From Gemmatimonadota bacterium (GTDB lineage Bacteria; Gemmatimonadota; Gemmatimonadetes; Longimicrobiales; Gaopeijiaceae), in contig JAJDXM010000092.1 of assembly GCA_022823225.1 (NCBI GenBank), positions 62,001 to 126,000 on the forward strand: 64,000 nt of DNA. The letters are read 5' to 3'. The translations under genes and the position numbers were made by a program. Below the pieces are notes generated by a model. The model did not search any database. It was given only the letters and a program-made list of their open reading frames with translations, and was not told where the DNA came from. Position 1 is the stretch's first letter; every line of letters starts with the position of its first letter. Below, in pieces: positions 11,648-35,203 of this stretch.

Positions 11648-14600
11648 ATGCCACGCCCGGCCTCAGAACCCATCGCAATCATCGGCATGGCGTGCCGCTT
11701 CCCCGGCGCGGACGACCTCGAGGCCTTCTGGCGGCTGCTCGAATCCGGGACCAACGCCGTGACCGAAGGCGTCCTGGGCTCCGGAGTCGGGCGAGCGGGA
11801 CAGCTCTTCCCCGACGACGGGGTCAACCCGGCCTGCCGCTTCGCCGGCTTCCTCGACCGTCTGGACGAATTCGACGCTTCGTTCTTCCGAATCTCGCCGG
11901 TGGAGGCTCAGCGTCTGGACCCGCAGCAGCGCATGATGCTCGAGACGAGCTGGCAGGCGCTCGAGGATGCCGGGATCGACCCGGACAGGCTCAAGGGCAG
12001 CCGCACCGGAGTATACGCGGGGATCAGCAACTACGACTACCGGGCGCTGGTGCTCGAGGCTGCCGAGCCGACCGAGCCGGCCGCAAGCCTCTACTCGGTG
12101 ACGGGCACGTCCTTCAACACGGCCATCGGGCGGGTAGCCTTCGCGCTGGGGCTGAGCGGTCCGGCGATGGCCCTCGACACAGCGTGTTCCTCGTCGCTGG
12201 TGGCCACTCACCAGGCGGTCTCGGGGCTGCAGCGAAGAGAGGCGGATCTGGCGCTGGCGGGCGGCGTGCACACGATCCTGTCGGCCCAGCTGTTCGAAAT
12301 GCGCGCCAACGCCGGGATGCTGTCGCCCGACGGACGGTGCGCCACCTTCGACGCCGGGGCAAACGGCTACGTGCGGGGCGAAGGCTGCGGCATCCTGGTC
12401 CTGAAGCGGCTCAGCGAAGCCATGGCTGACGGCGACCGGATATGGGCCGTGATCCGCAGCACGGCGGTCAATCAGGATGGGGCGACACCGGGTCTGACGG
12501 TGCCGAGCCAGGAGGCGCAGGAGCGGTGCATCGAGGACGCGCTCCTGCGGGCCGGGCTCCAGCCCTCGGACGTGGACTACGTGGAGGCTCACGGCACGGG
12601 AACGGAGGTGGGAGACCCCATCGAGGCGCGCGCGACGGCTGCAGCCTACGGCAGGGGACGAACGGCCGACCGTCCCATCCTGATCGGATCGGTGAAGACG
12701 AACATCGGGCACCTGGAGGCGGCGGCGGGCGCGGCAGGGATGATCAAGGCCGTCCTGTCGATCGAACGGCGCGCGATCCCCAAACACCTGCACTTCCGGA
12801 ATCCGAGCCCCCAGATAGACTGGGACGGAATTCCACTGCGGGTGACGGCTGACCGGATGGACTGGCCGCTCCGGTCCGGCCGGCCTCCGCGGGCGGGGGT
12901 GAGTGGCTTCGGCTGGTCCGGCACGAACGCCCACATCCTGTTGGAAGGGAATGAAGTAGCCGGTGACGCCGCAGGGTATGGGGATATGGACGGTCGGAAG
13001 TGGCCGGTCGGGGCCGCCTTGCCGGTCCCCGTCACGCCAGCGGAGGAGGGCGCGGATGCACGACGCTTGCCCGCACCGAAAGATGGAGAACTCTCCGCCC
13101 GGGCCACACGTGTCCTCCCCCTTTCCGGCAGGTCCGGCGACGCGCTCGGCGAGCTCGCGCAGCGGTATCTCGACTGGATCGACGAAAGAGCCGGGAGGGG
13201 TTCCGCAGGGAGCGGTGCAGACGCGCTTCTCGCGGACATGGCGTGGACGGCGGGTGTGGGGCGAAGTCATTTCGACCACCGGGCCGGGGTTGTGTTCCGG
13301 GACGCCGCGTCGTTGCGCGAGGGTTTGCGGCAGGTCGCCGATGCGGACGGGAGAGCTGCATCCGGCAAGGCGGCGACCGTGGCGTTCGCCTACGGTGGAC
13401 AGGCCAGCCAGTGGCCGGGCATGGGCGCGGGGCTGTATGCGAGCGAGCCGGTGGTGCGCGCGGTGCTCGACCGGTGCGACGAAGTGCTCAGGCAGGGGCG
13501 TGACGCCTCGCTGCTCGACGTGATGTTCGGTCGTCCCGCCGCCGTGGGCGACCTGGACGATCCGCAGTGGAAGCAGCCGGCGATCTACGCGCTCGAATGC
13601 GCCCTGGCGGCGTTCTGGTCGAGCCTTGGCATCCGGCCGGACGTGGTGGTGGGACACAGCCTTGGCGAGATCGCGGCGGCCCACGCTGCGGGCGTGTTCG
13701 GCCTGGAGGATGGGCTGCGCCTTGCGGCGGTGCGGGGCGAACTGGTCGGCGCTTTGCCCGGCGAGGGCGCGATGGCGGCGGTGTTCGCACCAGCCGCTCG
13801 CGTCGCGGAGGCGCTGGACGCGCACAATGCGGCGTCTCGCGGGATCGGCCTCTGTATCGCGGCCGACAACGGCGCGCACCAGGTCATCAGCGGTCCGGCT
13901 GACGAGGTCGGTGCGATCCTCGAGCGTCTTGAGGTGGACGGGATCGGGGTCGCGCGGCTGCGGAAGAGTCCCGCCTACCACAGCGCCATGATCGAGCCGG
14001 CGCTGGACGATCTGGAGGAAGCCCTCGCGAAGCTCTCCTTTGCGCCACCATCACTCCCCTTCGTCAGCAATCTCACCGGAAGGGCGGTCGGCGCGGGCGA
14101 GGCGCTGGATGCGTCCTACTGGCGGCGGCAGATGCGCGCGCCGGTGGCGTTTCGGGCCTGCATCGCGACCCTGGCCGATTTGGGGGTGGACGCGGTCGTG
14201 GAGATCGGCCCGCACTCGGTGCTCGGCCCGATGACGTCGCTCGCATGGCCCGAGACGCCAGGCACGCCAGAACCGCCCGCAGTGCTGTCGAGCCTCAAGC
14301 GGCCCGGTCGCAAGGTTTCGGCGACGGAAGCCGAAGACGCCTTCCTGGCGGCGGTGGCGGGAGCGTACGAGGCGGGGCTGCCGATACGCTTCGACAGGCT
14401 GTTCGCCGGTGAGTCGCGGCGCAGGATCTCGCTGCCGGGGTATCCGTTCCGCCGCGACCGCCACTGGATCGACGCACCCAGGCGGAGGCGCTCGGCGGCC
14501 GACCACCCGCTCCTCGGCAGCCGCCACGAGTCCGCCAGCGGCGAGATCGCCTTCGATACCGAGCTGTACCCTTCCGACCCGGCGTGGCTCGGCGACCACC

Positions 14601-17600
14601 GAGTGTTCAACCGGGTGGTTGCGCCTGGCGCGCTCCATGGCACGATGGCAGCATCGGCTTGCGCCTCCGAGAGCGACGGCCCCGTAGTCGTCGAGGACTT
14701 CCAGATGCGCAGCGCGCTTGTCTTTCCGGCGGGCGGCGACGACGGAAATGGAGATCGAAGCGCGGAGGAAGGCAGGCGGCTGCAGCTGCTGCTGGACGGA
14801 GCCGACGAGGGCGGGTCGCGGCGCGTCCGGATCCTGAGCAGGGGTGCGGCCGAGAACGAGTGGACGCTGCACGCGGAAGGCCGGGTCGCGACCGGCGCCG
14901 GTGCGGATCTGCCTCCCGCTCCCGCGCCGCTGGACCCGGCACGGCTCAGGTCCGAGCTGGCGCCGGTGGATCTCCCGGCCTACTACCGCGCCAAGGCGGA
15001 GGTCGGGATCGATCTCGGCCCCTCGTTCCGCACCTTGTCGGCGCTCTCGGCCGGACCGGGCGAAGCCCTGGGCGAGGTATCCCTGCCGGACTCCGCCGAC
15101 GCCGGCGGGCTTGCGTTCCACCCGCTCGTGCTGGATGGCTGCTTCCAGGTAATGGGTGCGGCCCGCGAGACGTTCGGATCCGACGAAGACGTCACCTATC
15201 TCCCCTTCGGGTGGGAGCGGTTGTCGGTGCCTGAACGGCTGCCCGAGCGGCTGCTCTGCCATGTCCGGATGAGGGAGACACCGGAGAGCGCGGGTGCCGA
15301 GCCTCCGGAGGTGCTGAGCGCGGACATCACCCTCCACGACCTGGATGGATCCCCGCTCGGCACGCTGAGCGGGTACACGGTGAAGCGGGCGACGCGGAGT
15401 GCGCTGCTCCCCGCGGCGGAGGGTGTGGAGGAATTGCTCTACGAGATCGTTTGGCGCGACCAGGCGCTGCCGCCGGGCATCGTGGCGGCGGACTTCCTCC
15501 CGAGTCCGTCGGCCGCGGCGTCCCGCGCCGAGCCGTTCTCACGGTACCTGGCCGTCGAGGGAGTCAGGGTCGAAGACGAGACCGGTCTGCAGGAGGAAAT
15601 GGAGCGGGTGTCGTGGGGCTACGCGCTCTCGGCGCTGGAGGCACTGGGGTGGGACCGTGAAGCGGGCGCGGTGGCGGATCCGGAGGAGCTGCGCGAGCGG
15701 CTTGAGATTCTGCCCGAACACGTTCATCTGCTGCGCCGCATGCTGGAGATTCTCGCACGCTCGGGGGTGTTGCGGGCGAACGGGGCGGGCTTCGTGGTCG
15801 CGGTCGGTGCCGGCGATCCGCTGCCCGATGGAATGCCGCACGATTCCGAGGCGTTTGTCACGGATGTGACACGGCGGTTCCCGCACGCCACGAACGAGAT
15901 CGGGCTGTTTCGGCGCTGTGCCGGTGCCTTACCCGAAGTGCTTCGCGGCGACGAGGACCCGCTCGCGCTGCTGTTCGGCGACGTGGAACCCAACGCCGTC
16001 GATCTCTACCGGCGGGCGCCGGCCTGGCGGGCGGCGAACGGGATGCTGGGCGAGGTGGTGCGCACCCTCGTCGGCGAGTCTCCGGCGGGCCGCCGGCTGC
16101 GCGTGCTGGAGGTGGGCGCCGGGATCGGCTCCGCGACCGAATACGTCCTTCCCGAGCTTCCGGCAGGACGGTTCGACTACACCTACACCGACATCTCCGC
16201 AGGCTTTTTCGCGGATGCCGAGGGGCGCTTCAGCACCCCGGACACCTCGATCGACTACCGGGTGCTGGACATCGAGAAGGACCCGGGGGACCAGGGCTTC
16301 GAGGCCCACGGCTACGATCTTGTAATCGCGGCCAATGTGCTGCACGCCACACGCCACCTGGACGAGACGCTCGCCCACTGCCGGGGACTCCTCGCCCCGT
16401 CCGGTCTGCTGGTGGCGCTCGAAAACCAGCGCGGCAGGGGCTGGATGGACCTGATATTCGGGCAGCTGGACGGATGGTGGCGCTTCGCCGACCGCTACCG
16501 CTCGAACCATGCCCTCGCCGGGCCCGAAGTCTGGCGGCAGGCGCTTGCTGACGCGGGGTTCGCGCAGTCCGAGGTTCTCGGCCTGGACAGGCAGGAAGTG
16601 GCCGGGTTGCCGGACCGAGGGGTGATTGTGGCGCAGGGTCCGGCGGAGATCGCCTTGCCGGAGGGTGTCTGGGTTCTGGCGGCTGACCGGGGCGGCGTGG
16701 CGGCGGCGCTGGCGGCGGAACTCGCTGCTCGGAACCAGCGGGTGGTGCTGGCGGGCGACGATTCGGAGGCCGCGAGCCTGGCAGCGGAAGGCGAGGTCGG
16801 AATCGTCGCGACACAGGTCGAGATGGGGCGGCGCGAGTCGTGGCGGTCGCTCTTCGAAAGCCTCCCCCCCGATGTGCCCCTGGCCGGCGTGGTGCACCTC
16901 GTCGCCCAGGACGGACGCGGGCCGGAGGCGGCAACCGCGGAGTTTGCGGCAGATGCGAAGCGGGCGGCCGGGAGCGCGCTCGCGCTTGTGCAGGGAATCG
17001 CGGACGCGGACATGGTGCCGGAGAAGGGCCTTTGGCTGGTCACCGTGGGGGCGCAGGTGCTGGAACGGGAAAGAACCGGCCAACTGGCCGGCGCCACCCT
17101 CTGGGGCTTCGGCAGAGTGGTGGCGCGGGAGGCGTCCCACCTGAATCCGCGAATGATCGACCTCGACCCCGAGTCGGCGAACGCGCCGGACACACTCGCG
17201 GACGAGTTGCTGTTCTCCGATTCGGAGAACCACGTCGCCTATCGCCGGGGACACCGGCAGGCGGCCCGGCTCGTCCGCTCGGGTGACGGCGTGCAGCGCC
17301 TTGCCCTGCCGGAGGAGGGGGACTGGGTGCTGGCGCCCGACGAGGGGGGGGCGATCGAGTCGCTGCGGGTGCAACCGCTGGCGCCGCGCGCTCTGGAGCC
17401 GAAGGAGGTGCGCGCCGCGGTGGAGGCCTGCGGACTCAACTTCCTGGACGTGTTCCGGGCCATGGGGCTGGTCGAGGACGAGGGGATGCTCGGCGAGGAA
17501 TTCTGCGGCCGAATCGTCGAGGTCGGCTCGGACGTGACCGCCGTCGCCGTGGGCGACCGCGTGGCCGGATTCGCGTTCGGCACCTTCGGGCCGGAGGTGG

Positions 17601-20600
17601 TGACACGGGAGGAACTGGTCGCGGTCGCGCCGGCGGGCGTGTCGGCGACAGCGCTCGCAACGATCCCTTCGGTCTTCGTGACCTGCGTGCTGTCCTACGA
17701 ACTTGCCGGGCTGAAGGCGGGGGACCGCGTGCTGGTTCACGCCGGCGCGGGCGGGGTCGGGCTCGCCGCCATTCAGTTGGCCCAGGCAGCGGGCGCGGAG
17801 GTCTTCGCCACGGCGAGCGCGCGAAAGAGGGACTATCTCCGCTCACTCGGCGTAAGGCATGTGTTTGACAGTCGGACGACCGCTTTCGGCGAGGAAATAC
17901 TCGAAGCAACGGGCGCCGCCGGGGTCGACGTCGTGCTGAACAGCCTGACGGGCGAGGGCTTCATCGAGGCCAGCCTGGCCTGCCTCGCGCACGGCGGCCG
18001 GTTCGTGGAACTCGCCCGGCGGGACATCCTTACCGAGGACGAGATGGCGGCTCTGCGGCCGGATGTCGCCTACGCCATCCTCGACCTCTACACCCTCAAG
18101 GAACAGGATCCGGCGGGACCGGGCGCTGCCCTTAAGGAAGTGCTGGCGCGCACGGAAACCGGCGACCTCGCACCGCTGAGGCACACCACTTGGCCGATGG
18201 CCGAAACGAGCGCCGCCATGGGCTACATGCGCGCGGCCCGGCACATCGGCAAGATCGTGCTGACGACGCCTCCGATCGCGGGCGGCCGGCTCCGGCGGGA
18301 CGGGACCTACCTGGTCACGGGCGGGCTGGGCGGAATCGGCCTCGCACTCGCCGAATGGCTTGCCGAACGCGGCGCGGGGACGGTCGTCCTGAACGGCCGC
18401 AGGGCACCGGACGCGGCGGCGGAGAAGGCCATCGAGGCGCTGCGCACGCGCGGATTCAGTGTCGATGTCGAGATCGCGGACGTTACGGACACGGCGGCGC
18501 TCGACGCCATGCTGGACCGGATGGACGGGTCCCTGCCACCGCTCGCCGGCGTGATCCACAGCGTCGGCGTGCTGTCGGACGCAGCCATCGGGAACCAGGA
18601 CTGGGAGAGTTTCGAGACCGTGCTGTGGCCGAAGATGCTGGGGGCCTGGCATCTCCACCGCGCGACAATGCACCGGGATCTGGACCTGTTCGTCCTCTTC
18701 TCCAGCGTGGCCGGGGTCCTGGGCAATCCGGGCCAGGCGAACCATGCGGCGGCCAACGCCTTCCTCGATCAGCTCGCGGTCCACCGGCGGGCGCTGGGGC
18801 TGCCGGGACAGGCCATCGCCTGGGGGGCGTGGTCGGGCATCGGCGAAGCCGAGGAACAACGCGCACGGATCGCGGAGCGGCGAGAGGTTTCCGGAACGGG
18901 CTGGTTCAGTCCGGAGCAGGGCTTCATGGCTCTGGACCGGCTGCTGCGGGAGGACTCGTCGACCTCGGTCGTACTGGCCGTGGACTGGCCCGTCTTCGGC
19001 GAGACCCTCGGGAGCCGCCACCCCCTGTTCGCGGACCTGGTGTCGGCGGATCAGGATCCTGCGGACGGCTCGACGGAGTCCTCAGACGACATCCTCGCTA
19101 CGCTTCGGGGCACGCCGCCCGCGGCGCGCGAGGAACTGCTCGTGTCATTCCTGCAGCGGGAAATCCAATCGGTGTTGCGGCTTCCGACGGCTCCGGCCCC
19201 CACGGTCGGTTTCTTCGACCTCGGGATGGACTCGCTGGTGGCGGTGGAGCTCCGCAACCGGTTGAACCGCGTGTTCGCCGGAGAGTACTCGGCACCCAAC
19301 ACCATCGTATTCGACTATCCGGACATTGCGTCGCTGGCCGGCCACCTGGCGACGGAGCTCGCCGCGGAAGCAGGCGCCCCCGCCACGGAGACGGAGCCCC
19401 TGCCGGAAGCGCGGCCCACGGTTCGCCAGGACGAGGATGGGATCGCGATCGTCGGCATGGCCTGCCGCTTCCCCGGCGCTCCGGACCTGGCGGCGTACTG
19501 GAGCCTGCTCGAAACCGGCAGGGACGCGGTGACGGACGGACGGCCCGGATCCGGTCCCTGGCACGGGGTCTCCGGGGATCCTGCCTCGGACGACCCGGTC
19601 TCCCGTCGCGGCGGGTTCGTCGAAGGGATCGATCGATTCGATGCGCGCTTCTTCGGAATGACGCCGATCGGTACGCGGATGATGGATCCGCAGCAACGGC
19701 TCCTGCTGGAGACGGCCTGGCAGGCACTCGAGGACGCCGGAATGGATCCCGAGGGTCTGCGTGGGAGCAACACCGGGGTCTATGCCGGAATCGCGGCGAG
19801 CGAATACCGCGACCTGATGATGGACGGCCTCGACGGCATCAACTACCTGGGAACCGCCGGCAGCATGGCGATCGGCGGAGTGGCTTTCAAGCTGGGGCTG
19901 ATGGGACCGACGATGCCTGTCGTCCTCAACTGCGCGGCGTCGCTCGTCGCCGTCCACCACGCCGTGGGGGCATTGCGACAGGGTGAAGTGGACCTGGCGC
20001 TGGTCGGGGGCGTGAACGCGATCTTTTCGCCCGGGCTGACCCGCGAGATGGCCGAGCTGCGGATGCTGTCGCCGGAAGGCCGCTGCAAGACCTTCGATGC
20101 TTCGGCGGACGGGTTCGTGCGGAGCGAGGGCTGCGGGATGGTCGTCCTGAAGCGCCTGGGCGAGGCAGAAGCGGACGGCGACCGGATCTGGGGCGTGATC
20201 CGGGGGTCCGCGGTCAACCAGAACGGGGCAACCGCGGGGCCGACGGTGCCGAATGGCCGAGCACAGCAGCGCGTGATCGAAGAGGCGCTCGACCGTGGCG
20301 GTGTTGCGCCCGACCAGGTCGATTACCTGGAAGCACACGGAGCCGGCTCCGCGCTGGGCGACCCGATCGAGGTGCAGGCCGCGGCCGCAGTCTACGGCCG
20401 CGGGCGAGAGCCGGACCGTCCGCTGCTGGTCGGCTCCGTGAAGACCAACATCGGCCACGTGGAGTCCGCCGCCGGGGTTGCCGCCCTGATCAAGGTGATT
20501 CTCGCAATGAAGCGCGGCTTGATCCCCAAACAGCTGCATTTCCGGAACCCTACGCCTCATCTGGACTGGGAAGGGCTGCCGGTGCGGGTCACGGCGGAAG

Positions 20601-21916
20601 CGCTGGACTGGCCGCAGCGGCCCGGACAGCCGCCCCGCGCCGGCGTGAGCGCCTTCGGCATCTCTGGTACCAACGCGCATGTCGTAGTCGAGGGCTACGG
20701 TTCCCCGGCGGGCGCCTCCCTTGCAGTCGACGCCGCAGCGTCGGCGCGGGCGTTCGTTGCGGATGCCCCGGGATCGCCCCGGACCGTTGCCCTTCCGCTC
20801 CCGGAACCTCTGTCGGACCTGCAGCGCGCGGCGGGTGACTGTCAGCCCCGAACGACGCGCGTCCTTCCCCTGTCCGGCAAGTCGGAGGGTGTGCTGAGCG
20901 AGCTCGCGAGACGGCATCTCGGCTGGATCGACGGACAGGCCGGCATCCTTGCCGATCCGGGCGCGCGCGCGGATTCACTGCTCGCGGACATGGCCTGGAC
21001 GGCAGGTGTGGGGCGCAGCCACTTCGTGCACCGAGCCGGGATCACATTCAGCGACGTCAGGTCGTTGCGAAATGGACTTCGAGCGCTGGCGAACGCGGAC
21101 GGACCGCCCCGCGGCCCGACCGCTCCGGACCCCGGGACCGCCCCGAGGCTGGCCTTCGTCTACGCCGGCATGGGACGCGAGCAGGCGGGAATGTCCGCGG
21201 AGCTCTACGAGACCGAGCCCGTCGTGCGAGTCATTCTCGACCGATGCGACACGGTGCTGAAGGAGGCCCGCGGGAACGTCTCGCTCCTGGACGTGATGTT
21301 CGGCCCGGCCAGGTCCGGCCCACCCGACCCTGCCTGGGCGCAGCCCGCGATCTTCGCCCTCGAGTGCGCGCTCACGGCGCTGTGGTCCGGTGTCGGGGTA
21401 CGGCCCGGCGTGGTTGCGGGGCAAGGCGTCGGGGAGCTGGCCGCAGCCTGGAGCGCGGGAGTGCTGAAACTCGAGGACGGACTTCGCCTGGCGGCCAGCC
21501 GGGGAATCGAAGCCGGGTTCGCCGAGATGACCGTCTCACCGCCATCGGTCAGGATGCTGAGCCAGTTGACCGGCCAGCTGATCCGGCCCGGCGAAGCACT
21601 CGACGGAGCATACTGGCTTGAGCAGGCACGCCAGCCCGAGAGCCCCCGGCAACCGCCCCGCGCCCTCGCGGAACTGGGCGTGGATCTGGTGTTGGAAATC
21701 GGGCCGGATACGGCCTCGGGTCCCGTACCGCTCCGCGACTGGCCGCAGGCGCCCGGGCAAGAATCCGGTCCATTCGCCGAGGCGGTGGCGAGCGCGTATG
21801 AGGCCGGACTTCCCGTCTCGTTCGCGGGACTGTTCGCGGGCGAAGAGCGGCGGCGAATCTCATTGCCCGGCTACCCGTTTCAACGAAGTCGCCATTGGTT
21901 CGAAGCGGGCTCGTGA
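11648..21916 (+). CDS. Type I polyketide synthase: KS-AT-DH-cMT-ER-KR-ACP-KS-AT(inactive)
   Basis: 3422 residues. KS1 about 6-428 with DTACSSS (Cys180). AT1 about 577-870 with GHSLGE. DH about 952-1240 with His984 but Asn988 where HxxxGxxxxP has Gly; second DH motif DGCFQ (1163-1167) intact. C-methyltransferase about 1380-1640 (LRVLEVGAGIGSATEY). ER about 1890-2200 (HAGAGGVGLAA). KR about 2215-2400 (TGGLGGIG), with His2366 at the usual catalytic Tyr position (GQANHAAAN). ACP with Ser2529 (GMDSL). KS2 about 2596-3015 with an unusual LNCAAS active site (Cys2762) but intact EAHG and NIGH. AT2 about 3167-3360 has GQGVGE instead of GHSxGE, so no nucleophile, and is about 90 residues shorter than AT1. 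The protein ends at the post-AT linker, without DH, ACP or thioesterase. The first module would make methyl-branched, fully reduced chains. A 4-base overlap couples it to the next gene. Confidence 0.93.
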   Translation: MPRPASEPIAIIGMACRFPGADDLEAFWRLLESGTNAVTEGVLGSGVGRAGQLFPDDGVNPACRFAGFLDRLDEFDASFFRISPVEAQRLDPQQRMMLETSWQALEDAGIDPDRLKGSRTGVYAGISNYDYRALVLEAAEPTEPAASLYSVTGTSFNTAIGRVAFALGLSGPAMALDTACSSSLVATHQAVSGLQRREADLALAGGVHTILSAQLFEMRANAGMLSPDGRCATFDAGANGYVRGEGCGILVLKRLSEAMADGDRIWAVIRSTAVNQDGATPGLTVPSQEAQERCIEDALLRAGLQPSDVDYVEAHGTGTEVGDPIEARATAAAYGRGRTADRPILIGSVKTNIGHLEAAAGAAGMIKAVLSIERRAIPKHLHFRNPSPQIDWDGIPLRVTADRMDWPLRSGRPPRAGVSGFGWSGTNAHILLEGNEVAGDAAGYGDMDGRKWPVGAALPVPVTPAEEGADARRLPAPKDGELSARATRVLPLSGRSGDALGELAQRYLDWIDERAGRGSAGSGADALLADMAWTAGVGRSHFDHRAGVVFRDAASLREGLRQVADADGRAASGKAATVAFAYGGQASQWPGMGAGLYASEPVVRAVLDRCDEVLRQGRDASLLDVMFGRPAAVGDLDDPQWKQPAIYALECALAAFWSSLGIRPDVVVGHSLGEIAAAHAAGVFGLEDGLRLAAVRGELVGALPGEGAMAAVFAPAARVAEALDAHNAASRGIGLCIAADNGAHQVISGPADEVGAILERLEVDGIGVARLRKSPAYHSAMIEPALDDLEEALAKLSFAPPSLPFVSNLTGRAVGAGEALDASYWRRQMRAPVAFRACIATLADLGVDAVVEIGPHSVLGPMTSLAWPETPGTPEPPAVLSSLKRPGRKVSATEAEDAFLAAVAGAYEAGLPIRFDRLFAGESRRRISLPGYPFRRDRHWIDAPRRRRSAADHPLLGSRHESASGEIAFDTELYPSDPAWLGDHRVFNRVVAPGALHGTMAASACASESDGPVVVEDFQMRSALVFPAGGDDGNGDRSAEEGRRLQLLLDGADEGGSRRVRILSRGAAENEWTLHAEGRVATGAGADLPPAPAPLDPARLRSELAPVDLPAYYRAKAEVGIDLGPSFRTLSALSAGPGEALGEVSLPDSADAGGLAFHPLVLDGCFQVMGAARETFGSDEDVTYLPFGWERLSVPERLPERLLCHVRMRETPESAGAEPPEVLSADITLHDLDGSPLGTLSGYTVKRATRSALLPAAEGVEELLYEIVWRDQALPPGIVAADFLPSPSAAASRAEPFSRYLAVEGVRVEDETGLQEEMERVSWGYALSALEALGWDREAGAVADPEELRERLEILPEHVHLLRRMLEILARSGVLRANGAGFVVAVGAGDPLPDGMPHDSEAFVTDVTRRFPHATNEIGLFRRCAGALPEVLRGDEDPLALLFGDVEPNAVDLYRRAPAWRAANGMLGEVVRTLVGESPAGRRLRVLEVGAGIGSATEYVLPELPAGRFDYTYTDISAGFFADAEGRFSTPDTSIDYRVLDIEKDPGDQGFEAHGYDLVIAANVLHATRHLDETLAHCRGLLAPSGLLVALENQRGRGWMDLIFGQLDGWWRFADRYRSNHALAGPEVWRQALADAGFAQSEVLGLDRQEVAGLPDRGVIVAQGPAEIALPEGVWVLAADRGGVAAALAAELAARNQRVVLAGDDSEAASLAAEGEVGIVATQVEMGRRESWRSLFESLPPDVPLAGVVHLVAQDGRGPEAATAEFAADAKRAAGSALALVQGIADADMVPEKGLWLVTVGAQVLERERTGQLAGATLWGFGRVVAREASHLNPRMIDLDPESANAPDTLADELLFSDSENHVAYRRGHRQAARLVRSGDGVQRLALPEEGDWVLAPDEGGAIESLRVQPLAPRALEPKEVRAAVEACGLNFLDVFRAMGLVEDEGMLGEEFCGRIVEVGSDVTAVAVGDRVAGFAFGTFGPEVVTREELVAVAPAGVSATALATIPSVFVTCVLSYELAGLKAGDRVLVHAGAGGVGLAAIQLAQAAGAEVFATASARKRDYLRSLGVRHVFDSRTTAFGEEILEATGAAGVDVVLNSLTGEGFIEASLACLAHGGRFVELARRDILTEDEMAALRPDVAYAILDLYTLKEQDPAGPGAALKEVLARTETGDLAPLRHTTWPMAETSAAMGYMRAARHIGKIVLTTPPIAGGRLRRDGTYLVTGGLGGIGLALAEWLAERGAGTVVLNGRRAPDAAAEKAIEALRTRGFSVDVEIADVTDTAALDAMLDRMDGSLPPLAGVIHSVGVLSDAAIGNQDWESFETVLWPKMLGAWHLHRATMHRDLDLFVLFSSVAGVLGNPGQANHAAANAFLDQLAVHRRALGLPGQAIAWGAWSGIGEAEEQRARIAERREVSGTGWFSPEQGFMALDRLLREDSSTSVVLAVDWPVFGETLGSRHPLFADLVSADQDPADGSTESSDDILATLRGTPPAAREELLVSFLQREIQSVLRLPTAPAPTVGFFDLGMDSLVAVELRNRLNRVFAGEYSAPNTIVFDYPDIASLAGHLATELAAEAGAPATETEPLPEARPTVRQDEDGIAIVGMACRFPGAPDLAAYWSLLETGRDAVTDGRPGSGPWHGVSGDPASDDPVSRRGGFVEGIDRFDARFFGMTPIGTRMMDPQQRLLLETAWQALEDAGMDPEGLRGSNTGVYAGIAASEYRDLMMDGLDGINYLGTAGSMAIGGVAFKLGLMGPTMPVVLNCAASLVAVHHAVGALRQGEVDLALVGGVNAIFSPGLTREMAELRMLSPEGRCKTFDASADGFVRSEGCGMVVLKRLGEAEADGDRIWGVIRGSAVNQNGATAGPTVPNGRAQQRVIEEALDRGGVAPDQVDYLEAHGAGSALGDPIEVQAAAAVYGRGREPDRPLLVGSVKTNIGHVESAAGVAALIKVILAMKRGLIPKQLHFRNPTPHLDWEGLPVRVTAEALDWPQRPGQPPRAGVSAFGISGTNAHVVVEGYGSPAGASLAVDAAASARAFVADAPGSPRTVALPLPEPLSDLQRAAGDCQPRTTRVLPLSGKSEGVLSELARRHLGWIDGQAGILADPGARADSLLADMAWTAGVGRSHFVHRAGITFSDVRSLRNGLRALANADGPPRGPTAPDPGTAPRLAFVYAGMGREQAGMSAELYETEPVVRVILDRCDTVLKEARGNVSLLDVMFGPARSGPPDPAWAQPAIFALECALTALWSGVGVRPGVVAGQGVGELAAAWSAGVLKLEDGLRLAASRGIEAGFAEMTVSPPSVRMLSQLTGQLIRPGEALDGAYWLEQARQPESPRQPPRALAELGVDLVLEIGPDTASGPVPLRDWPQAPGQESGPFAEAVASAYEAGLPVSFAGLFAGEERRRISLPGYPFQRSRHWFEAGS

Positions 21917-27663: not shown

Positions 27664-28947
27664 CTAGTACCGCGGCCGCCTACGCAACTCCGCGGCTCGG
27701 GCGTGCGCCTCGAGTCCCTCCATGCGAGCCATCACGGCGGCGTCACCCGCCAGTCGTACGCGTGCCGGCCCGTCGTCGAGTCGCAGCCATGTGGGCCTCC
27801 GAAGGAATGAGAATACCGACAGTCCTCCGGTGAAGCGGGCGGTGCCACCGGTCGGCAGAGTGTGGTTTGGACCGGCGCCATAGTCCCCGAAGACTTCCGT
27901 GACGGATTGGTTGACAAATACTGTCCCGAATCGGTCCAGTTCTCTTTCCCAGGCCGCCGCGCGGCCCCCGTGGAGTTGCAGATGCTCAGGCGCAAGCTGC
28001 TGACAGCAGTCCAGTGCTTCCTGCTCAGGGGCGACCACGGCGAAGCCGTTGTGGAGCGCGGCGATTGCGGTTTCGGCGGTGGGAAGGTCCGCGAGCTGGG
28101 CTGCGAGTTCCTCCTCGACGCGGGCGACCAGACCGCTGGCCGTCGTGATGAGGACCGGCAGGGCTTCCGGATCGTGCTCGGCCTGCGCCAGAAGGTCGGC
28201 CGCGATGAGGACCGGATCGCCGTCCTCGTCCGCGAGGACCGCGAGTTCGGACGGCCCGGCCAGCAGGTCGATTCCGACCACGCCCGACACCAGGAGCTTC
28301 GCGGCGGTCACCCAGCGGTTCCCCGGGCCGACCACCACATCGCACGGGGGGACCGGCGAAACACCGTACGCCATGGCCGCCACGGCCTGCGCCCCCCCCG
28401 CCGCCAGCAGCCCCGCCACCCCCGCCACCGCCCCCGCCGCCATCACCTCCCGGGACGGGTTCGGCGAGGCCAGCCAGACCTCCCGCACCCCGGCGACCCT
28501 CGCCGTCACAGCCGTCATGAGTACCGACGAGGGCAGCGGAAACCGACCTCCCGGCGCGTAGCAGCCGGCCACCCGGACAGGTACGACCCGGTCGCCGGCC
28601 CTTCCCCCTTCCACCGCCACATCCACCGGGGCTGCCGCCTCCAGCTGGGCGCGGGCGAAGTGCTCGATCCGGCCGGCGGCGCGCTCGAGCACTTCCCGGT
28701 CCCCCCGTGGCAGCGAATCGAGCGCTGTCTGCATCTCACGGGGATCCCGGGTCAGCGCCCCGCCGGCCTCCAGCCCGTCCCAGCGCCGGGCGAGTTGGCG
28801 CAGCCGGGCTTCGCCGCCCCTTCGCACCGATTCGATGATCTCGAGCACGGGCGCGATCATCTCGGGCTGCACGGCGGGTTGGCGCATCCGGCCAACGTCG
28901 GTCGCGGCGATCCGCCGCAAGCGGACACGGCGGCCTCTCCTATTCAC
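27664..28947 (-). CDS. hisD: Histidinol dehydrogenase
   Basis: 427 residues. It oxidises histidinol to histidine using two NAD+ and zinc (last two steps of histidine synthesis). Family blocks are present: VVGPGNRWVTAAK, LLAGPSELAVLAD, LLAQAEHDP, QLAPEHLQLH and GAGPNHTLPTGGTARF, which include the zinc ligands and catalytic Glu/His residues. The start is a GTG overlapping the end of the hisA-I-E gene by 8 bases. It is the last gene of the his operon here. Confidence 0.95.
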   Translation of the reverse strand: MNRRGRRVRLRRIAATDVGRMRQPAVQPEMIAPVLEIIESVRRGGEARLRQLARRWDGLEAGGALTRDPREMQTALDSLPRGDREVLERAAGRIEHFARAQLEAAAPVDVAVEGGRAGDRVVPVRVAGCYAPGGRFPLPSSVLMTAVTARVAGVREVWLASPNPSREVMAAGAVAGVAGLLAAGGAQAVAAMAYGVSPVPPCDVVVGPGNRWVTAAKLLVSGVVGIDLLAGPSELAVLADEDGDPVLIAADLLAQAEHDPEALPVLITTASGLVARVEEELAAQLADLPTAETAIAALHNGFAVVAPEQEALDCCQQLAPEHLQLHGGRAAAWERELDRFGTVFVNQSVTEVFGDYGAGPNHTLPTGGTARFTGGLSVFSFLRRPTWLRLDDGPARVRLAGDAAVMARMEGLEAHARAAELRRRPRY

Positions 28948-30301
28948 GCGCCGCCCCCTTCGGCGGCGACGCCTCCCGCCGGCTCACATTGAGGGCGCGG
29001 CGGTCCAGCTCGCGCTCGACATCGCCAAGGCTCACGCCGGCCCGCTCGAGCGCCACCATCAGAAAGTACATCAGGTCCGCGGCCTCTTCGACCACGCGGT
29101 CTCCACTGCCGGGCCGTGCGGCGCTCCCCGCCGAGTCGGCCGACCGCCCGGGTGGGGTCGGGCCATCGCTTCGTCCGGCGGCGCCTGCCGAATCACTCAC
29201 CGCATCGCCCAGTTCGCCTGCCTCCTCCACGAGCTTCCCACGGAGCAGCGCCACATCCTCGAGGAGGCGGCTGGTCAGCGACCCGGGGGTCGGCGCGGCG
29301 CGGCGCAATCTCACGATGCGTTCCAGCGCGCTCAGCCCCCGCGCCGGACCGAAGCAGCCCCAGTCTCCGGTGTGGCAGAACCCGGATCCCCGCTGCGCAA
29401 CCGTGAAGCGCAGCGCGTCCCGGTCGCAGTCGGGCTCGACGCGCAGGAGATCCTGGATGGCGCCCGAGGACTCGCCCTTTTTCCAGAGCCCGCGAGAGCG
29501 CGACTGGTAGACACCACGCCCCGTCTCGATCGCCGCGCGCACGCTCTCGGGGCTGGACCAGACCAGTCCCAGAACGCCGCCCCGGTCGTCGGCCACCACC
29601 GTCGGCCAAAGACCGTCGGGCCGTTCGCTCCTGAGCGGGGCCGCAAACGCTTCGGCGAGCCCCAGCGTGCCACGGTAAAGCGCCATGCCGACCTGCGCAT
29701 CGGCGCCGGCAGCATCCAGCCAGGCGACCTCATCGGCAGTCGTGATTCCACCCGCCACCGTCAGGCGGGACGAGCCCGCCGCCTCCACAAGCGCCGCAAT
29801 CCCGTCCTCGGGGAACCCCCCCTCCATCCCCTCCCCCTCGACGAACGTCACGAGGAAACCGCCCGCTAGCCCGCGAAGCTCTCGCATGCCGTCCTGGACG
29901 GTTCTTCCGGTGCGCTCGGTCCAGCCCTTAACGACCACTTCGCCCTTCCACATGTCCAGCGCCGCGACCACCCTCTCGGCCGGCAGCGACTCCAGCACCT
30001 CCGGAACGGCGGCCGTGCCCAGGACAACCTTTGCGGCGCCCCGATCAAGCCACTCGAGCGCCGCGTCGGGCGTGCGTATGCCGCCGCCCACCCGGCAACG
30101 CGCGATTCCGCAAAGTTCCTCGACGACCGCGGCGTTCGACCCGCGTCCAAGCGCGGCGTCCAGGTCGACCACCGCCACCTCCCCAACCCGGCCGAAGCGC
30201 TCGGCAAGCGGGCGTGGATCGCCGGCTTCCAGAGCCTTGCGGCGGCCCTGTATCAGCTGTACCGCCTGGCCGTCCATGAGGTCGATCGAAGGGACGATCA
30301 T
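28940..30301 (-). CDS. hisAIE: Trifunctional HisA-HisI-HisE fusion
   Basis: 453 residues. HisA (ProFAR isomerase) occupies 1-about 228: an eightfold barrel with Asp7 (IDLMDG), VGGGIRT at 71-77 and AGGIT. HisI (phosphoribosyl-AMP cyclohydrolase) is at about 232-320, with metal-binding DCDRD at 291-295 and FCHTG at 308-312. HisE (phosphoribosyl-ATP pyrophosphatase) is at about 340-440, with KLVEEAGEL and VVEEAADLMYF; a Ser/Gly/Pro-rich insertion (about 370-400) splits its helices. HisI-HisE fusions are common, but HisA joined to the front is not usual. The ATG overlaps the hisF stop (ATGA). The protein would carry out steps 2, 3 and 4, consecutive in the pathway. Confidence 0.92.
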   Translation of the reverse strand: MIVPSIDLMDGQAVQLIQGRRKALEAGDPRPLAERFGRVGEVAVVDLDAALGRGSNAAVVEELCGIARCRVGGGIRTPDAALEWLDRGAAKVVLGTAAVPEVLESLPAERVVAALDMWKGEVVVKGWTERTGRTVQDGMRELRGLAGGFLVTFVEGEGMEGGFPEDGIAALVEAAGSSRLTVAGGITTADEVAWLDAAGADAQVGMALYRGTLGLAEAFAAPLRSERPDGLWPTVVADDRGGVLGLVWSSPESVRAAIETGRGVYQSRSRGLWKKGESSGAIQDLLRVEPDCDRDALRFTVAQRGSGFCHTGDWGCFGPARGLSALERIVRLRRAAPTPGSLTSRLLEDVALLRGKLVEEAGELGDAVSDSAGAAGRSDGPTPPGRSADSAGSAARPGSGDRVVEEAADLMYFLMVALERAGVSLGDVERELDRRALNVSRREASPPKGAARE

Positions 30302-31173
30302 GGCCGGACCCCCACCCCGAGCGCCGCCAGCGCCTCCTTCACCCGGCCCACCGTCCACTCCCGCTGGTGGAAGATCGAGGCAGCCAGCACCGCATCCGCC
30401 CCGTGCCGCACGGCATCGGCCATGTGCCCGGGGTCGTCGGCCCCTCCCGATGCGACGATGGGCACCTCAACGGCCTCGCGCACGGCGCGGAGCAGCGGAA
30501 GCTCATAGCCGCTGCGCGTCCCGTCCCGGTCGATGCTGGTCAGGAGAATCTCCCCCGCACCAAGGTCGACCGCGTGGCGCGCCCACCTGGTCGCGTCCAC
30601 GGCCACGGGCTCGGTCCCGGAGCGAACCACAACCTCATAGGCGTCGACGGCAAGGTCGTCCGCCGCCCCGTCCGGCCGTTCCTTCGCCCGGGCCGCCGCA
30701 ACGCCCGTCCGGGCCGCGTCCCCTCCGACCCTCAACGCGTCGATCGACAGGACAACGCACTGGGTTCCGAAGCGCGCCGCCAGTTCGGAGAGCAGGTCCG
30801 GGCGCCGCAGCGCGGCGGTGTTGACCGCGACCTTGTCCGCACCGGCTTCCAGAAGCGCCTCCGCGTCTTCGACCCCGCGGATGCCGCCGCCCACCGCAAG
30901 GGGCACCGAGAGCCGCGCCCTGACGGAGCGCACCGTGTCCAGGCGCGTCCGCCGCGCTTCGGTGGTCGCGGTGACATCGAGCACGACAACCTCGTCCGCG
31001 CCCTGTTCCTCGTAGGCGCGGGCAAGGGTGGCGGGGTCGCCCTGGTCGGCGAGTCCCTTGAACTTCACGCCTTTGACGACGCGCCCGGCGCGCACATCCA
31101 GGCAGGGGATGATGCGCACCGGCAACATCGTCGCCACCGCCCGGTCCACGCTCGGGGTGCTCGCGGGTCGCAT
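30298..31173 (-). CDS. hisF: Imidazole glycerol phosphate synthase, cyclase subunit
   Basis: 291 residues, somewhat longer than the usual about 255 because of an N-terminal extension and an insertion (about 160-185, RTGVAAARAKERPDGAADDL). Conserved IIPCLDVRAGRVVKGVKF with the first catalytic Asp, LAVGGGIRG, and TSIDRDGTRSGYEL with the second Asp. The ATG at 31173 is chosen because GGAGG lies about 8 bases upstream and it is 3 bases after the hisH stop; Met16 would match the usual length. With HisH it makes IGP and AICAR from PRFAR and glutamine. Confidence 0.95.
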   Translation of the reverse strand: MRPASTPSVDRAVATMLPVRIIPCLDVRAGRVVKGVKFKGLADQGDPATLARAYEEQGADEVVVLDVTATTEARRTRLDTVRSVRARLSVPLAVGGGIRGVEDAEALLEAGADKVAVNTAALRRPDLLSELAARFGTQCVVLSIDALRVGGDAARTGVAAARAKERPDGAADDLAVDAYEVVVRSGTEPVAVDATRWARHAVDLGAGEILLTSIDRDGTRSGYELPLLRAVREAVEVPIVASGGADDPGHMADAVRHGADAVLAASIFHQREWTVGRVKEALAALGVGVRP

Positions 31174-31176
31174 GGT

Positions 31177-31791
31177 TCAGGCCTCCAGCCAGCGGTTCAG
31201 GAGCAGTGCTCCGTAGGCACCGGACAACTCCGGGTGGAACTGGCAGCCGACCACCGCCCCGCACTCCACCGCTGCGAGGAACCGGCCCGCGTATTCGCAC
31301 CACACGGGCTCCCACCCGGCGGGCCTCGCGGTGAGGCGGTAGGAGTTCGCGAAGTACGCGTAGCCGGGCGGCACGATGGTGCACCCCCGGGCCGGGATGA
31401 CCCGGTTCCACCCCATCTGGGGGACGCGCCATTCCTGCTCACCGGTCTCGAAGCGTCCCGCAACCCCGTCCAGCACGCCGAGTCCCGGAGTGCCAGGAGC
31501 TTCCTCGCTACCCGTTGCCATCAGTTGCATGCCGAGACAGATCCCCAGAGTGGCTCGCCCCCGTTCGATCCGCTCGCGCAAGGGATCTTCCAATCCGTGC
31601 GAGGCGATGGCGCCCCGGGCGGCCGCAAATGCGCCCACGCCGGGGAGGACGAGACGGTCGGCGCGTGCAACGCGACCGGCATCGGCCGTGGTGCGCACCC
31701 GGCAGCCGATGCGTTCGAAGCCGGCCACCACCGAGGCGAGGTTGGCCGTGCTGGTCCGAACGACCGTGACTTCGGGCGCAGACCGGCTCAA
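31177..31791 (-). CDS. hisH: Imidazole glycerol phosphate synthase, glutamine amidotransferase subunit
   Basis: 204 residues of the class I glutaminase family: nucleophile Cys in GICLGMQL, and the His/Glu pair in GCQFHPELSG. The N-terminus VTVVRTSTANLASVVAGFER resembles the family start, although the usual Asp of DYG..N is changed. The start is inferred as TTG at 31791, which overlaps the hisB stop (TTGA), as other junctions in this operon do; there is no ATG or GTG in a better place. It supplies ammonia to HisF. Confidence 0.9.
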   Translation of the reverse strand: MSRSAPEVTVVRTSTANLASVVAGFERIGCRVRTTADAGRVARADRLVLPGVGAFAAARGAIASHGLEDPLRERIERGRATLGICLGMQLMATGSEEAPGTPGLGVLDGVAGRFETGEQEWRVPQMGWNRVIPARGCTIVPPGYAYFANSYRLTARPAGWEPVWCEYAGRFLAAVECGAVVGCQFHPELSGAYGALLLNRWLEA

Positions 31792-32450
31792 AGGACGCCC
31801 TTTGTCGACGGCACCCGGCCGGAACCATCGCCGGCGAGCGCCGCCTTGAGGGCCAGAGCCGTCGCCTTGAAGGCCGCCTCGATTCGGTGGTGGTCGTTCG
31901 TCCCGCGGACCACGTCGACGTGCAGCGTGAGCCCCGCGCCCTGGGCGAAGGAGTGGAAGAAGTGGGGCACCATCTCGCACGACAACGCGCCGACGCGCTC
32001 GCGCCGGAGCCCCAGGTCGCCGGCGAAGAAGGCCCGGCCGGAGACATCGACAACCGCCCGGGCCAGCGCCTCGTCGAGCGGGGCGAAGGCGTGGCCGAAA
32101 CGCGCGATCCCCATTATGTCCTCGCCCAACGCCAGCGCCACCGCCCGCCCGAGGGCGAGTCCCGTGTCCTCGACGGTGTGGTGGTCGTCGACCTCCGTGT
32201 CGCCGTCGCACGCGAGTTCCAGCGCCCACCCGGCGTGGAAGGCGAGCGCGTGCAGCATGTGGTCGAAGAACCCGACCCCGGTGCGCACCCGGACGGCGGT
32301 CGCGTCGAGCCCACGATCCTCGCGCATTCCCGGTGGGCGGTCCTCGGCGCCCGCCCGGGCCTCCGACTGCTCGCGCCCGTACAGCGCGAGCCGCACGGTC
32401 ACCCGTGTTTCCCCGGTCTCGCGGGAAAACTCACTCACCGCTTCACGCAT
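31788..32450 (-). CDS. hisB: Imidazoleglycerol-phosphate dehydratase
   Basis: 220 residues, monofunctional. Manganese-binding repeats are visible: GFFDHMLHALAFHAG, DTEVDDHHTVEDTGLALG, VDVSGRAFF and GTNDHHRIEAAFKA. The ATG at 32450 is selected because GGAGGAG stands 7 bases upstream; it overlaps the hisC-HAD stop by 8 bases. The insertion near residues 20-40 (REQSEARAGAEDRPPGMRED) is slightly unusual. It dehydrates IGP to imidazole acetol phosphate. Confidence 0.95.
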   Translation of the reverse strand: MREAVSEFSRETGETRVTVRLALYGREQSEARAGAEDRPPGMREDRGLDATAVRVRTGVGFFDHMLHALAFHAGWALELACDGDTEVDDHHTVEDTGLALGRAVALALGEDIMGIARFGHAFAPLDEALARAVVDVSGRAFFAGDLGLRRERVGALSCEMVPHFFHSFAQGAGLTLHVDVVRGTNDHHRIEAAFKATALALKAALAGDGSGRVPSTKGVL

Positions 32451-34086
32451 TGAACACTCCTCCAAAGTCGGCATTCGCCTCCACGACCCGAGCGGCCCCC
32501 GCACCCTCCAGCGCCCCCCACTCGGCGTCCCCCCCGCCCGGCGGCACCACCCCGAGCGGCACCACCCCGGCCGCGACGGCGGCGCGCACATCGTCGGGCG
32601 TGTCTCCCAGCAGCCAGCCGCTCTGCGCCTTGAGCAACCGCATTGCGATCGCGACCGAGGCCGGATCGGGCTTGAGCGGCCCGTCCTCGCGGCAGACAAC
32701 CGCGCTGAACAACTCCCGCACGCCCTGTTCCCGCAGGAAGCGCTCGGCGTCGCGGCGCGGCCTGCCGGTGACTACGCCCAGGCGGGACGACCGGGCCAGC
32801 GCCGCGAGATGGGCCCGATCCGGGATCAGCGTCTCGTGGCGGCGAAGTCCCGGCGATCCCTCCGTCCCCTGGTACAGTTCCTCAAAGCGCCCGGTGACCT
32901 CCGCCAGCGGCGCCTCCACACCCCGGCGGGCAAGCAGCCTCCGGGTGACCTCCCAATCGTCGTTGGCGTCGCCCCCAGCCTTCACGGCGGCGATCTCTTC
33001 GCGCCCTGCTTCGACCCCGTAGGAGGCGCAGGTCCGCGCGATCGCCTCACGGTACGACCGCCGCACATCGGCGAGCACGCCATCCATGTCGAAGAGGATC
33101 GCCTCCGGGGTGGCCAGACATGCCAGCGCCCGCTCCACGCGGCCGAATTCCTCTGCGTCGCGCGGCACCGTGATGCGCACGTACTCCGGCAGATGGGCGA
33201 AGTGGCGCACCTTGATTCCCTGCGCCGCCAATCCACGCAGGATCCACCGCGCGTCCGGAAAGGAAGCCAGCACGAAGTTCGTCTGCGACGGTTCGGCGGC
33301 GCCCCCGGCATCCCGGATCGCGGCCGCCAGCCTGACGCGCCCGGCGCGCGCATCCCGCACGACGCGGCGCATCCTGCCGACACCGCCCTGCAGCTGGTCG
33401 AGCGCGATCTCGATCGATGGCCCGGTCAGCGCATACGGCCCGCCGAAGCCCCGCAGCACGTCGATCCGCTCCTTCGGCCCAAGGGCGAAGCCCACGCGCA
33501 GACCGGCAAGTCCCCACGCCTTCGAAAGGGTGCGGATCACGATCGTGCGCGGAAGCTCCAGGAGCGCGCCGGTCGGGTTTTCGTCCGCGAACTCGGCGTA
33601 CGCCAGGTCGACCATGAGGGTCACGTGGGCTGGAAGCGCCTGGCCAAGACTCAGCAGGGACTCGGTCGTGAAGGCCCGGCCGGTGGGATTGTCGGGGGTG
33701 AGGACCGCAACCACGCCGGTCCGGTCGCTCACCGCCGCTACGATTTCGGCAACGGGCAGCGTGCCCCAGTCGTACTCGACGGGGACGATTTCCCCACCGG
33801 CCATGCGTGCGCAAGCCGGGACCATCTCGAAGGTGGGCGTCGGGTACACAAGGTCCTGTCCCGGCGCCAGGAAGGCGCGCATCACCCGGTCGATGGCGTC
33901 GTCGGCTCCCGTCGTGGCGAGGACGTTGCCGGGCGAGGTCCCGATGTAGGCCGCGTACGCCGCCTCCAACGGCGCCGGGTCGGCGTACTTGCGCAGAAGG
34001 CCGGGACCCAGGCGGTCCAGCACCCGCAGACTGCTCTTCGGCGGCGGCGGTCCCTCGTTCATGCTGAGGTCGATGACGTCTCTCAT
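32443..34086 (-). CDS. hisC: Histidinol-phosphate aminotransferase fused to a HAD phosphatase
   Basis: 547 residues. Residues 1-about 330 are a class I/II PLP aminotransferase: Asn133 (PDNPTGR), Asp160/Tyr163 (MVDLAYAEF) and the PLP lysine Lys189 (TLSKAWGLAGLRVG). Residues about 328-547 are a HAD subfamily IA hydrolase: nucleophile and acid/base Asp333/Asp335 (LFDMDGVLAD), VVTGRPRRDAERFL and GDTPDDVRAA. No other histidinol-phosphate phosphatase is seen in the operon, so the HAD domain is a good candidate for that step, directly after the transamination made by the first domain. It starts 13 bases after hisG. Confidence 0.9.
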   Translation of the reverse strand: MRDVIDLSMNEGPPPPKSSLRVLDRLGPGLLRKYADPAPLEAAYAAYIGTSPGNVLATTGADDAIDRVMRAFLAPGQDLVYPTPTFEMVPACARMAGGEIVPVEYDWGTLPVAEIVAAVSDRTGVVAVLTPDNPTGRAFTTESLLSLGQALPAHVTLMVDLAYAEFADENPTGALLELPRTIVIRTLSKAWGLAGLRVGFALGPKERIDVLRGFGGPYALTGPSIEIALDQLQGGVGRMRRVVRDARAGRVRLAAAIRDAGGAAEPSQTNFVLASFPDARWILRGLAAQGIKVRHFAHLPEYVRITVPRDAEEFGRVERALACLATPEAILFDMDGVLADVRRSYREAIARTCASYGVEAGREEIAAVKAGGDANDDWEVTRRLLARRGVEAPLAEVTGRFEELYQGTEGSPGLRRHETLIPDRAHLAALARSSRLGVVTGRPRRDAERFLREQGVRELFSAVVCREDGPLKPDPASVAIAMRLLKAQSGWLLGDTPDDVRAAVAAGVVPLGVVPPGGGDAEWGALEGAGAARVVEANADFGGVFNA

Positions 34087-34099
34087 TCCCGGTCCACCC

Positions 34100-34981
34100 T
34101 CACTGCACGATCTGCTGCGGCTCGGAGACCACCAGGTCGGTGCCTCCCCGGGCCTTCACCTTCAGGAGCAGGGCGGGGAGTTCCGCGCGAGGAACCGCGG
34201 CCCTGACCGCGTAGGCGCGCTCCCCGTGGAGGCGCGACACGGTGGGCTCCCGCATGCAGGGCAGGATCGACACCACGGCATCGAAGTCGTCCTCGGCGAC
34301 GTTGAGTTCCAGCATGACCCGCTGCCGCGCCTCGAGCACCGAAGTGAGCAGGAGGACCAGGTCGTCGATCGCGGCTCGCCGCGCGGAATCGCCGAGGGCC
34401 GCCGGGTTGGCGTACAGCCGCGTGGAGGAACTCATGAGGGTGTCCACGATCACGAGCCCGTTGCCCCGCAGCGTGGCCCCGGTCGCGGTATTGTCGATGA
34501 TGAGGTCGGCGTCCTCGGGCGGGAAGACCTCGGTCGCCCCGTAGGACCGCACCACGGCGGCATCGAAGGGCTGTTCCCGCGTCCACCGTTCGGCCAGCCG
34601 CACGTACTCCGTCGCCAACACCAGACTCTGGCCCGCGGAAAGCGAACCGCCGTTGAGGAGCGCCTCGGGAGCAGCCGCGACCACTCGCACCGGGTCGAGT
34701 CCCGTGTCGAGCAGTTCCACGAGGTCGGCGCCGAGTTCGGCCACCCAGTCGGCGCCCGCAAAGCCCAGGTCGCGGGAACCCGCATCCAGCATCTTCACCA
34801 CGTTCTGCGGTTTGAGCAGCTTCGCGCTGAATCCCGGCCACGACAGCTCGGGACGGTAGTTGCGGCCGCCCGTGCGCACATCGATGCCCGCATCGCCGAG
34901 CAGCGCGCGGACTCCGGCTTCCATCCGGCCCTTGGGCAACCCGATCCGAATTGCGCCGCTCTGCCGATGTGTCTCGTCCAT
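34100..34981 (-). CDS. hisG: ATP phosphoribosyltransferase (long form)
   Basis: 293 residues: first and committed step of histidine synthesis, from ATP and PRPP. IRIGLPKGRMEAGVRALL at the N-terminus, LGFAGADWVAEL, the PRPP-loop-like DNTATGATLRGNGL, and a C-terminal about 75-residue ACT-like regulatory domain (VSRLHGERAYAVRAAVPRAE, then VVSEPQQIV). The long form is usually feedback-inhibited by histidine without HisZ. It is the first structural gene after the attenuator. Confidence 0.95.
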   Translation of the reverse strand: MDETHRQSGAIRIGLPKGRMEAGVRALLGDAGIDVRTGGRNYRPELSWPGFSAKLLKPQNVVKMLDAGSRDLGFAGADWVAELGADLVELLDTGLDPVRVVAAAPEALLNGGSLSAGQSLVLATEYVRLAERWTREQPFDAAVVRSYGATEVFPPEDADLIIDNTATGATLRGNGLVIVDTLMSSSTRLYANPAALGDSARRAAIDDLVLLLTSVLEARQRVMLELNVAEDDFDAVVSILPCMREPTVSRLHGERAYAVRAAVPRAELPALLLKVKARGGTDLVVSEPQQIVQ

Positions 34982-35031: not shown

Positions 35032-35064
35032 AAAAAAAGCGCCGGACCTCCGAGGAAGCCGGCG
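35032..35064 (-). terminator. Intrinsic terminator of the his attenuator
   Basis: On the minus strand CGCCGG (35064-35059), a 13-base loop containing a CCTC/GAGG dyad, CCGGCG (35045-35040), C, then seven T (35038-35032). It lies 29 bases after the leader-peptide stop and 50 bases before hisG. The 3' arm can also pair with GCGCCGG after the T run (7-base stem with a T7 loop), an alternative fold. I could not identify an antiterminator with certainty by eye. Confidence 0.75.
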
Positions 35065-35093
35065 TCTCTGGTATCCGTTCCGTTCCCGTACGG

Positions 35094-35165
35094 CTACACC
35101 GTCGCGCGGCCCCCTTTCCGGTGACCGTGATGGCGATGCGTCGCTGTGCGGGTACGAATGGTCAT
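35094..35165 (-). CDS. hisL: His-operon leader peptide (attenuator)
   Basis: A 23-codon frame MTIRTRTATHRHHGHRKGG, then RATV, stop TAG. Four histidines fall in six codons (10-15), the hallmark of a histidine-sensing leader peptide. It lies between the operon promoter and the intrinsic terminator upstream of hisG. By the known mechanism, ribosome stalling at the His codons when charged His-tRNA is scarce would favour antitermination. There is no clear ribosome site; the predicted transcript starts only a few bases before the ATG, so translation may be leaderless. Confidence 0.8.
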   Translation of the reverse strand: MTIRTRTATHRHHGHRKGGRATV

Positions 35166-35174
35166 AAGATCTTA

Positions 35175-35203
35175 ATCGTCACACCCACGGGGCCGGGTGT
35201 CAA
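35175..35203 (-). promoter_or_regulatory. his operon promoter
   Basis: On the minus strand TTGACA (35203-35198), a 17-base spacer and GACGAT (35180-35175; three of six consensus bases, including the key A and T). The transcript would begin around 35168-35165, at or just before the leader ATG. Confidence 0.55.

Follow-up and report, generated by a model that had tools for sequence, protein, structure and literature searches.

A probable leader-peptide attenuator, predicted to be leaderless, upstream of the his operon in Gemmatimonadota

In the 64,000-nucleotide stretch of a Gemmatimonadota genome that was analysed here (contig JAJDXM010000092.1; hereafter the window), a complete his operon, consisting of hisG, hisC-HAD, hisB, hisH, hisF, hisA-hisI-hisE and a hisD-like gene, is headed by a short leader element. 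This raises the question of whether the operon is controlled by ribosome-mediated attenuation and, if so, how such an attenuator is built in this phylum. The original prediction, made from the letters of the window, had proposed a TTGACA promoter element, a 23-codon reading frame encoding HRHHGH, a hairpin followed by seven T, and hisG 50 nucleotides further on, and all of these parts are found in that order and in the places it had assigned to them. The features of the locus are the following.

35198..35203, minus strand: -35 element TTGACA (TTGAC kept in 87-88 of 89 leaders)
35175..35180, minus strand: inferred weak -10 element GACGAT, 17-nt spacer, 9 nt 5' of the ATG
35094..35165, minus strand: leader ORF, ATG to TAG, 23 codons, MTIRTRTATHRHHGHRKGGRATV*, predicted leaderless
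35121..35138, minus strand: regulatory His codons, CAT CGC CAT CAC GGT CAC, four His
35107..35127, minus strand: 1:2 (protector) hairpin, predicted by folding without a ribosome
35103..35115, minus strand: region 2, antiterminator 5' strand (AGGGGGCCG.CGC), predicted from folding and conservation
35053..35064, minus strand: region 3, antiterminator 3' strand and terminator 5' arm (CGCCGGCTTCCT), predicted from folding and conservation
35032..35068, minus strand: intrinsic terminator, hairpin 35068-35037 and T7 35038-35032
34100..34981, minus strand: hisG (PF01634, PF08029), ATG at 34981
32443..34086, minus strand: hisC fused to a HAD-family phosphatase domain
31788..32453, minus strand: hisB (imidazoleglycerol-phosphate dehydratase), start provisional
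31177..31800, minus strand: hisH (glutamine amidotransferase), start provisional
30298..31137, minus strand: hisF
28940..30304, minus strand: hisA-hisI-hisE fusion
27664..28947, minus strand: last gene of the operon, which from its translation and from family knowledge we take to be hisD-like

The HisA, PRA-CH (HisI) and PRA-PH (HisE) domains lie in one frame (28940-30304, minus strand), and the HAD-family phosphatase domain on HisC (32443-34086, minus strand) is a candidate histidinol-phosphate phosphatase for this pathway. Elsewhere in the window, a 3422-aa frame on the plus strand (11648-21916) resembles a modular type I polyketide synthase.

The histidine run of the leader ORF is far above chance. 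At least four His within ten codons are found in 1 of the 648 short ORFs of the window, namely the leader ORF alone. No control stretch out of 134 taken beside trpE, leuA or ilvB matches has as many, and when the 304-nt upstream region was shuffled 2000 times by dinucleotides, four were reached once. The biosynthetic operon is preceded by a short ORF in which codons for the amino acid it produces are clustered. An exact-letter search of the window's own genome with an idealised His run gave no match, because the actual letters differ.

The original prediction would have been undermined by a lack of His-codon runs in close relatives, but when every same-genus genome with hisG was examined, 18 in all, the run preceded the gene at 17 of 18 loci, being absent in L017. 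In the phylum as a whole, 90 of 135 sampled hisG loci, from many genera, have an ATG-started His-run leader, which is missing in family f3, in most of f4 and in genus g12. The typical motif of the genus is ...HHHHGH..., represented in the window by HRHHGH, and the peptide sequence outside the run is not conserved. In L001 and L014 the C-terminus of the leader is read in other frames while the same nucleotides are kept, so that after the His codons it is the RNA rather than the peptide tail that is conserved. A covariance model built from the genus leader (R1) locates the element ahead of hisG in every same-genus genome with a leader, usually once per genome.

Some loci depart from this pattern. 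The genus member L017/L154 and the further relatives L158 and L159 have hisG without a His leader, apparently as a result of attenuator loss. In Palauibacter and relatives (L161, L162, L169, L173, L198), Tyr codons occur among the His codons of the leader upstream of hisG (MTNTHPYFGHYYYHRVRGGR); such a leader could respond to tyrosine as well as to histidine, or could be a decaying His run. In the genome G006 a second complete set of promoter, His leader and terminator lies further down the same operon, after hisC-HAD and before hisB:

L331 1501-1634 (G006:C13:261456-261589), minus strand: second leader copy, in one same-genus genome

The promoter is supported by comparison. In 89 leaders it takes the form TTGAC-N17-TANNNT, with a GACNAT-like -10 in the window's genus (variants GACAAT, GACTAT and GAGAAT), and the distance from the first -35 base to the ATG is 34-39 nt in 84 of them, a value that is nearly independent of how the spacer was scored. 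A pyrimidine directly precedes the ATG in 80 of 89 leaders and a Shine-Dalgarno-like tetramer is seen in just 3 of 89. Because the short promoter-to-ATG distance is fixed and such motifs are rare, we predict a leaderless or almost leaderless leader peptide, whose promoter by comparison places the +1 at the ATG. In the window, 9 nt separate the end of the -10 from the ATG, which would allow a +1 between 0 and 4 nt upstream of the start codon. Of the promoter originally proposed, TTGACA is retained, and the best -10 is corrected to the weak GACGAT at a spacer of 17. The further proposal of a transcription start at the leader ATG, without a ribosome site, is supported by the constant spacing in the 89 leaders and the lack of Shine-Dalgarno motifs, and transcription very probably begins at the leader ATG or within a few bases 5' of it. 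Since the leader-peptide transcript of Sinorhizobium meliloti trpL has been established to be leaderless (PMC7298713), such a design is plausible and not unprecedented.

The terminator is found by folding. The hairpin at 35068-35037 has a calculated energy of -20.2 kcal/mol, compared to a shuffle mean of -11.1 kcal/mol (z -3.65), and none of 200 shuffles equals it; an intrinsic terminator thus separates the leader ORF from hisG. In relatives, nearly all His-run leaders have a terminator 20-55 nt past the leader stop. A strict consensus scanner reported neither promoter nor terminator at the locus, because a -10 this weak and a stem with a bulge fall outside its rules.

The original prediction had pointed to folding of the leader RNA as a way of finding a competing antiterminator, and one was found in this way and is conserved. 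When the ribosome is represented by a single-stranded footprint on the leader RNA, folding predicts three states for the window. In the absence of a ribosome, the 1:2 hairpin (35127-35107) and the terminator would form; with a ribosome halted on His codon 10 or 13, region 2 (35115-35103) is predicted to pair with the terminator 5' arm (35064-35053); and with a ribosome at the stop codon, the terminator alone would form. Much the same three states are obtained by folding for L005, L008, L016, L027, L094 and L137, and at least six antiterminator pairs appear in 76 of 77 leaders with a mid-run stall, compared to 15 with the ribosome at the stop. The in silico prediction is thus of an antiterminator that excludes the terminator and becomes available when a ribosome stalls on the regulatory codons, with a modest margin over shuffles: the mean number of antiterminator pairs is 12.7 for the real sequences and 10.5 with region 2 shuffled, and shuffled versions pair nearly as well because the whole region is GC-rich. 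A gapless-helix shuffle test likewise gives weak support, the mean fraction of shuffles as good being 0.22.

Conservation and cross-phylum covariation were therefore relied on instead. Among 15 genus members, 8 of 12 core antiterminator pairs are invariant and RNAalifold selects the antiterminator on the genus alignment, while covariation within the genus is weak. Across phyla, leaders pair better with their own terminator arms than with permuted ones (29.4 vs 26.5, p = 5e-5, for 21 de-duplicated sequences, with a p-value only partly corrected for relatedness), and arms are replaced together, as in GAUGGU/ACCAUC vs GAUCGU/ACGAUC. The window's own arm pair is not specific in the swap test (rank 19 of 21), and RNAalifold returned no structure on the cross-phylum alignment, probably because loop lengths vary.

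The conservation of the His run, the terminator and the conserved predicted antiterminator support the original proposal of ribosome-mediated attenuation, and we consider it highly probable that the element is a transcription attenuator controlled by translation of a His-rich, leaderless leader peptide. The parts, their conservation and the mutually exclusive predicted folds are what the analysis observes; the transcription start, translation, stalling and histidine response would follow from them as we now describe. RNA polymerase would begin at the leader AUG or a few bases upstream, and a ribosome would need no Shine-Dalgarno site to load on this 5'-terminal AUG. With an ample supply of charged tRNA-His, the ribosome would reach the stop codon and cover region 2, such that regions 3 and 4 would form the terminator and transcription would end before hisG. 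When charged tRNA-His is short, the ribosome would stall at the four His codons and leave region 2 free to pair with the terminator 5' arm, and this antiterminator would allow the his operon to be transcribed. Without translation, the 1:2 hairpin would hide region 2 and the terminator would form.

Other explanations of the same anatomy have to be weighed against this one. The weakness of the window's -10, which lies 9 nt from the ATG, and the possibility of other promoters further upstream would fit translation-dependent control through a conventional ribosome site, with an upstream transcription start and a 5' untranslated region. We find this unlikely, since the -35-to-ATG distance is fixed and the -10 conserved across the 89 leaders, of which 3 have a Shine-Dalgarno-like motif. 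It is less likely still that the terminator acts alone, either as a constitutive damper or as the end of a small RNA, beside a His-rich ORF that is incidental: the hairpin is strong by itself and the antiterminator gains little over shuffles, but 90 leaders from many genera repeat the His run before hisG, no such run is seen beside trpE, leuA or ilvB, and the arms co-vary across phyla.

We give hardly any credence to the short ORF being a functional His-rich, metal-binding small protein. The HHHHGH motif is indeed conserved, but the sequence outside the run is not, the C-terminal frame varies between species over retained nucleotides, and the ORF is nearly always coupled to a terminator and hisG. 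Control of the operon by a T-box or another ligand- or protein-binding leader would have parallels in the Firmicutes, where T-boxes and HisR regulate his genes (PMC9413887); it is just as improbable for the present locus, as the window has no above-threshold match to any Rfam family and the leader peptide and terminator fully explain the anatomy. The T-box riboswitch was discarded as a candidate, the window having no match to the Rfam T-box model.

Returning to the leader-peptide attenuator, its distribution reaches beyond the phylum. By HisG, the closest named relatives of the window are MAGs that carry the titles Gemmatimonadetes/Gemmatimonadota bacterium and Longimicrobiales bacterium, which places the window in an uncultured member of the phylum. 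Among the best 80 HisG relatives, which define the coverage of other phyla here, His-run leaders also stand before hisG in MAGs labelled as Phycisphaerae and other Planctomycetota, Sumerlaeota, Acidobacteria (Acidobacteriota) and Deltaproteobacteria. Such labels can be wrong, because L151, titled Chloroflexi, carries a leader identical to one from the window's genus. Many of the other-phylum leaders have a promoter near the ATG and the common core GCCGG-N-TGATGGTG ... ACCATCGACGCCGGC. The model R1, although built from the window's genus only, matches other-phylum leaders from the ATG to the T-run (L192 2e-9, L172 3e-6, L177 1e-5), with the His codons adding to these scores. The HisG tree contains two very distant HisG types inside Gemmatimonadota, each with its own attenuator style, and the window's type is intermixed with other phyla, the deep branches being poorly resolved.

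On balance we lean towards a cross-phylum family of leaderless histidine attenuators that is not represented in Rfam and has one RNA core, passed on by vertical descent or gene transfer together with a single deeply divergent hisG type in Gemmatimonadota, Planctomycetota, Acidobacteriota, Sumerlaeota and Deltaproteobacteria/Myxococcota, while a second, differently built attenuator would serve the other hisG type of Gemmatimonadota. As part of this joint reading, region 2 of the core, GCCGG-N-TGATGGTG, overlapping the leader stop codon, would pair with the terminator sequence CACCATC-GA-CGCCGGC.

The HisG of the window has 60-66% identity to that of Myxococcota, Planctomycetota and Alphaproteobacteria MAGs and about 30-35% to that of other families of its own phylum. 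For other amino acids, no Trp leader was seen in the trpE upstream regions of relatives, and order and family relatives have Leu/Val/Ile-rich short ORFs before leuA (L251-L254, L256, L258, L259, L261-L263; e.g., MTRSINLLLVLRLLSLTGLSGEGHVRTGRESGR), with no obvious promoter directly before the ATG. These ORFs are likely branched-chain attenuators.

The element had originally been called a classical histidine attenuator outside the Proteobacteria. The working principle holds: as in hisL of Escherichia coli and Salmonella (RF00514), there is a His-run peptide, predicted protector, antiterminator and terminator folds, hisG as the first gene and the same inferred logic. Membership in RF00514 was rejected, however, as the gathering threshold is not reached in the window and 0 of 40 relatives are over the cut-off, whereas an identical search detects His_leader above that score in 1 of 14 control genomes; Rfam searches of the window at gathering and relaxed thresholds gave chance matches only. 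Nor does the enterobacterial arrangement of ribosome site and untranslated leader apply to the Gemmatimonadota element, which is predicted to be leaderless, has, in the window, fewer and partly interrupted His codons (4 of 6) and belongs to a different phylum.

His-codon leaders with predicted terminator and antiterminator outside the Proteobacteria have already been reported in the Firmicutes, for hisZ/hisS* (PMC2965389) and for his genes of the B. cereus group, Peptostreptococcaceae and Erysipelotrichales (PMC9413887); these differ in phylum and partly in the genes concerned, and a leaderless start is not reported in the sections of the two papers considered. In the trpL of S. meliloti the 5' end coincides with the leader ATG of a ribosome-mediated attenuator, which is demonstrated there and predicted here, but trpL concerns tryptophan and trpE in Alphaproteobacteria (PMC7298713). 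The Actinobacteria provide another high-GC, non-proteobacterial phylum with classical attenuation, having trp, ilv and leu attenuators or leader peptides, and no conserved RNA elements were reported there upstream of other amino acid operons such as that for histidine (PMC1262725). A full-text literature search of partial coverage for Gemmatimonadota with leader peptides or attenuation gave nothing relevant.

What is new is thus the phylum, the apparent leaderless design as a rule and the cross-phylum RNA core; the mechanism itself is textbook, and the understanding of attenuation is unchanged by the Gemmatimonadota element. The finding extends histidine leader-peptide attenuation to a phylum for which the literature searched, with its partial coverage, gave no description. 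It provides a concrete RNA family for possible addition to Rfam and offers a means of annotating many short leader genes that currently escape notice. It also suggests that starting the transcript at the leader AUG, with no ribosome site, is a common design outside enterobacteria.
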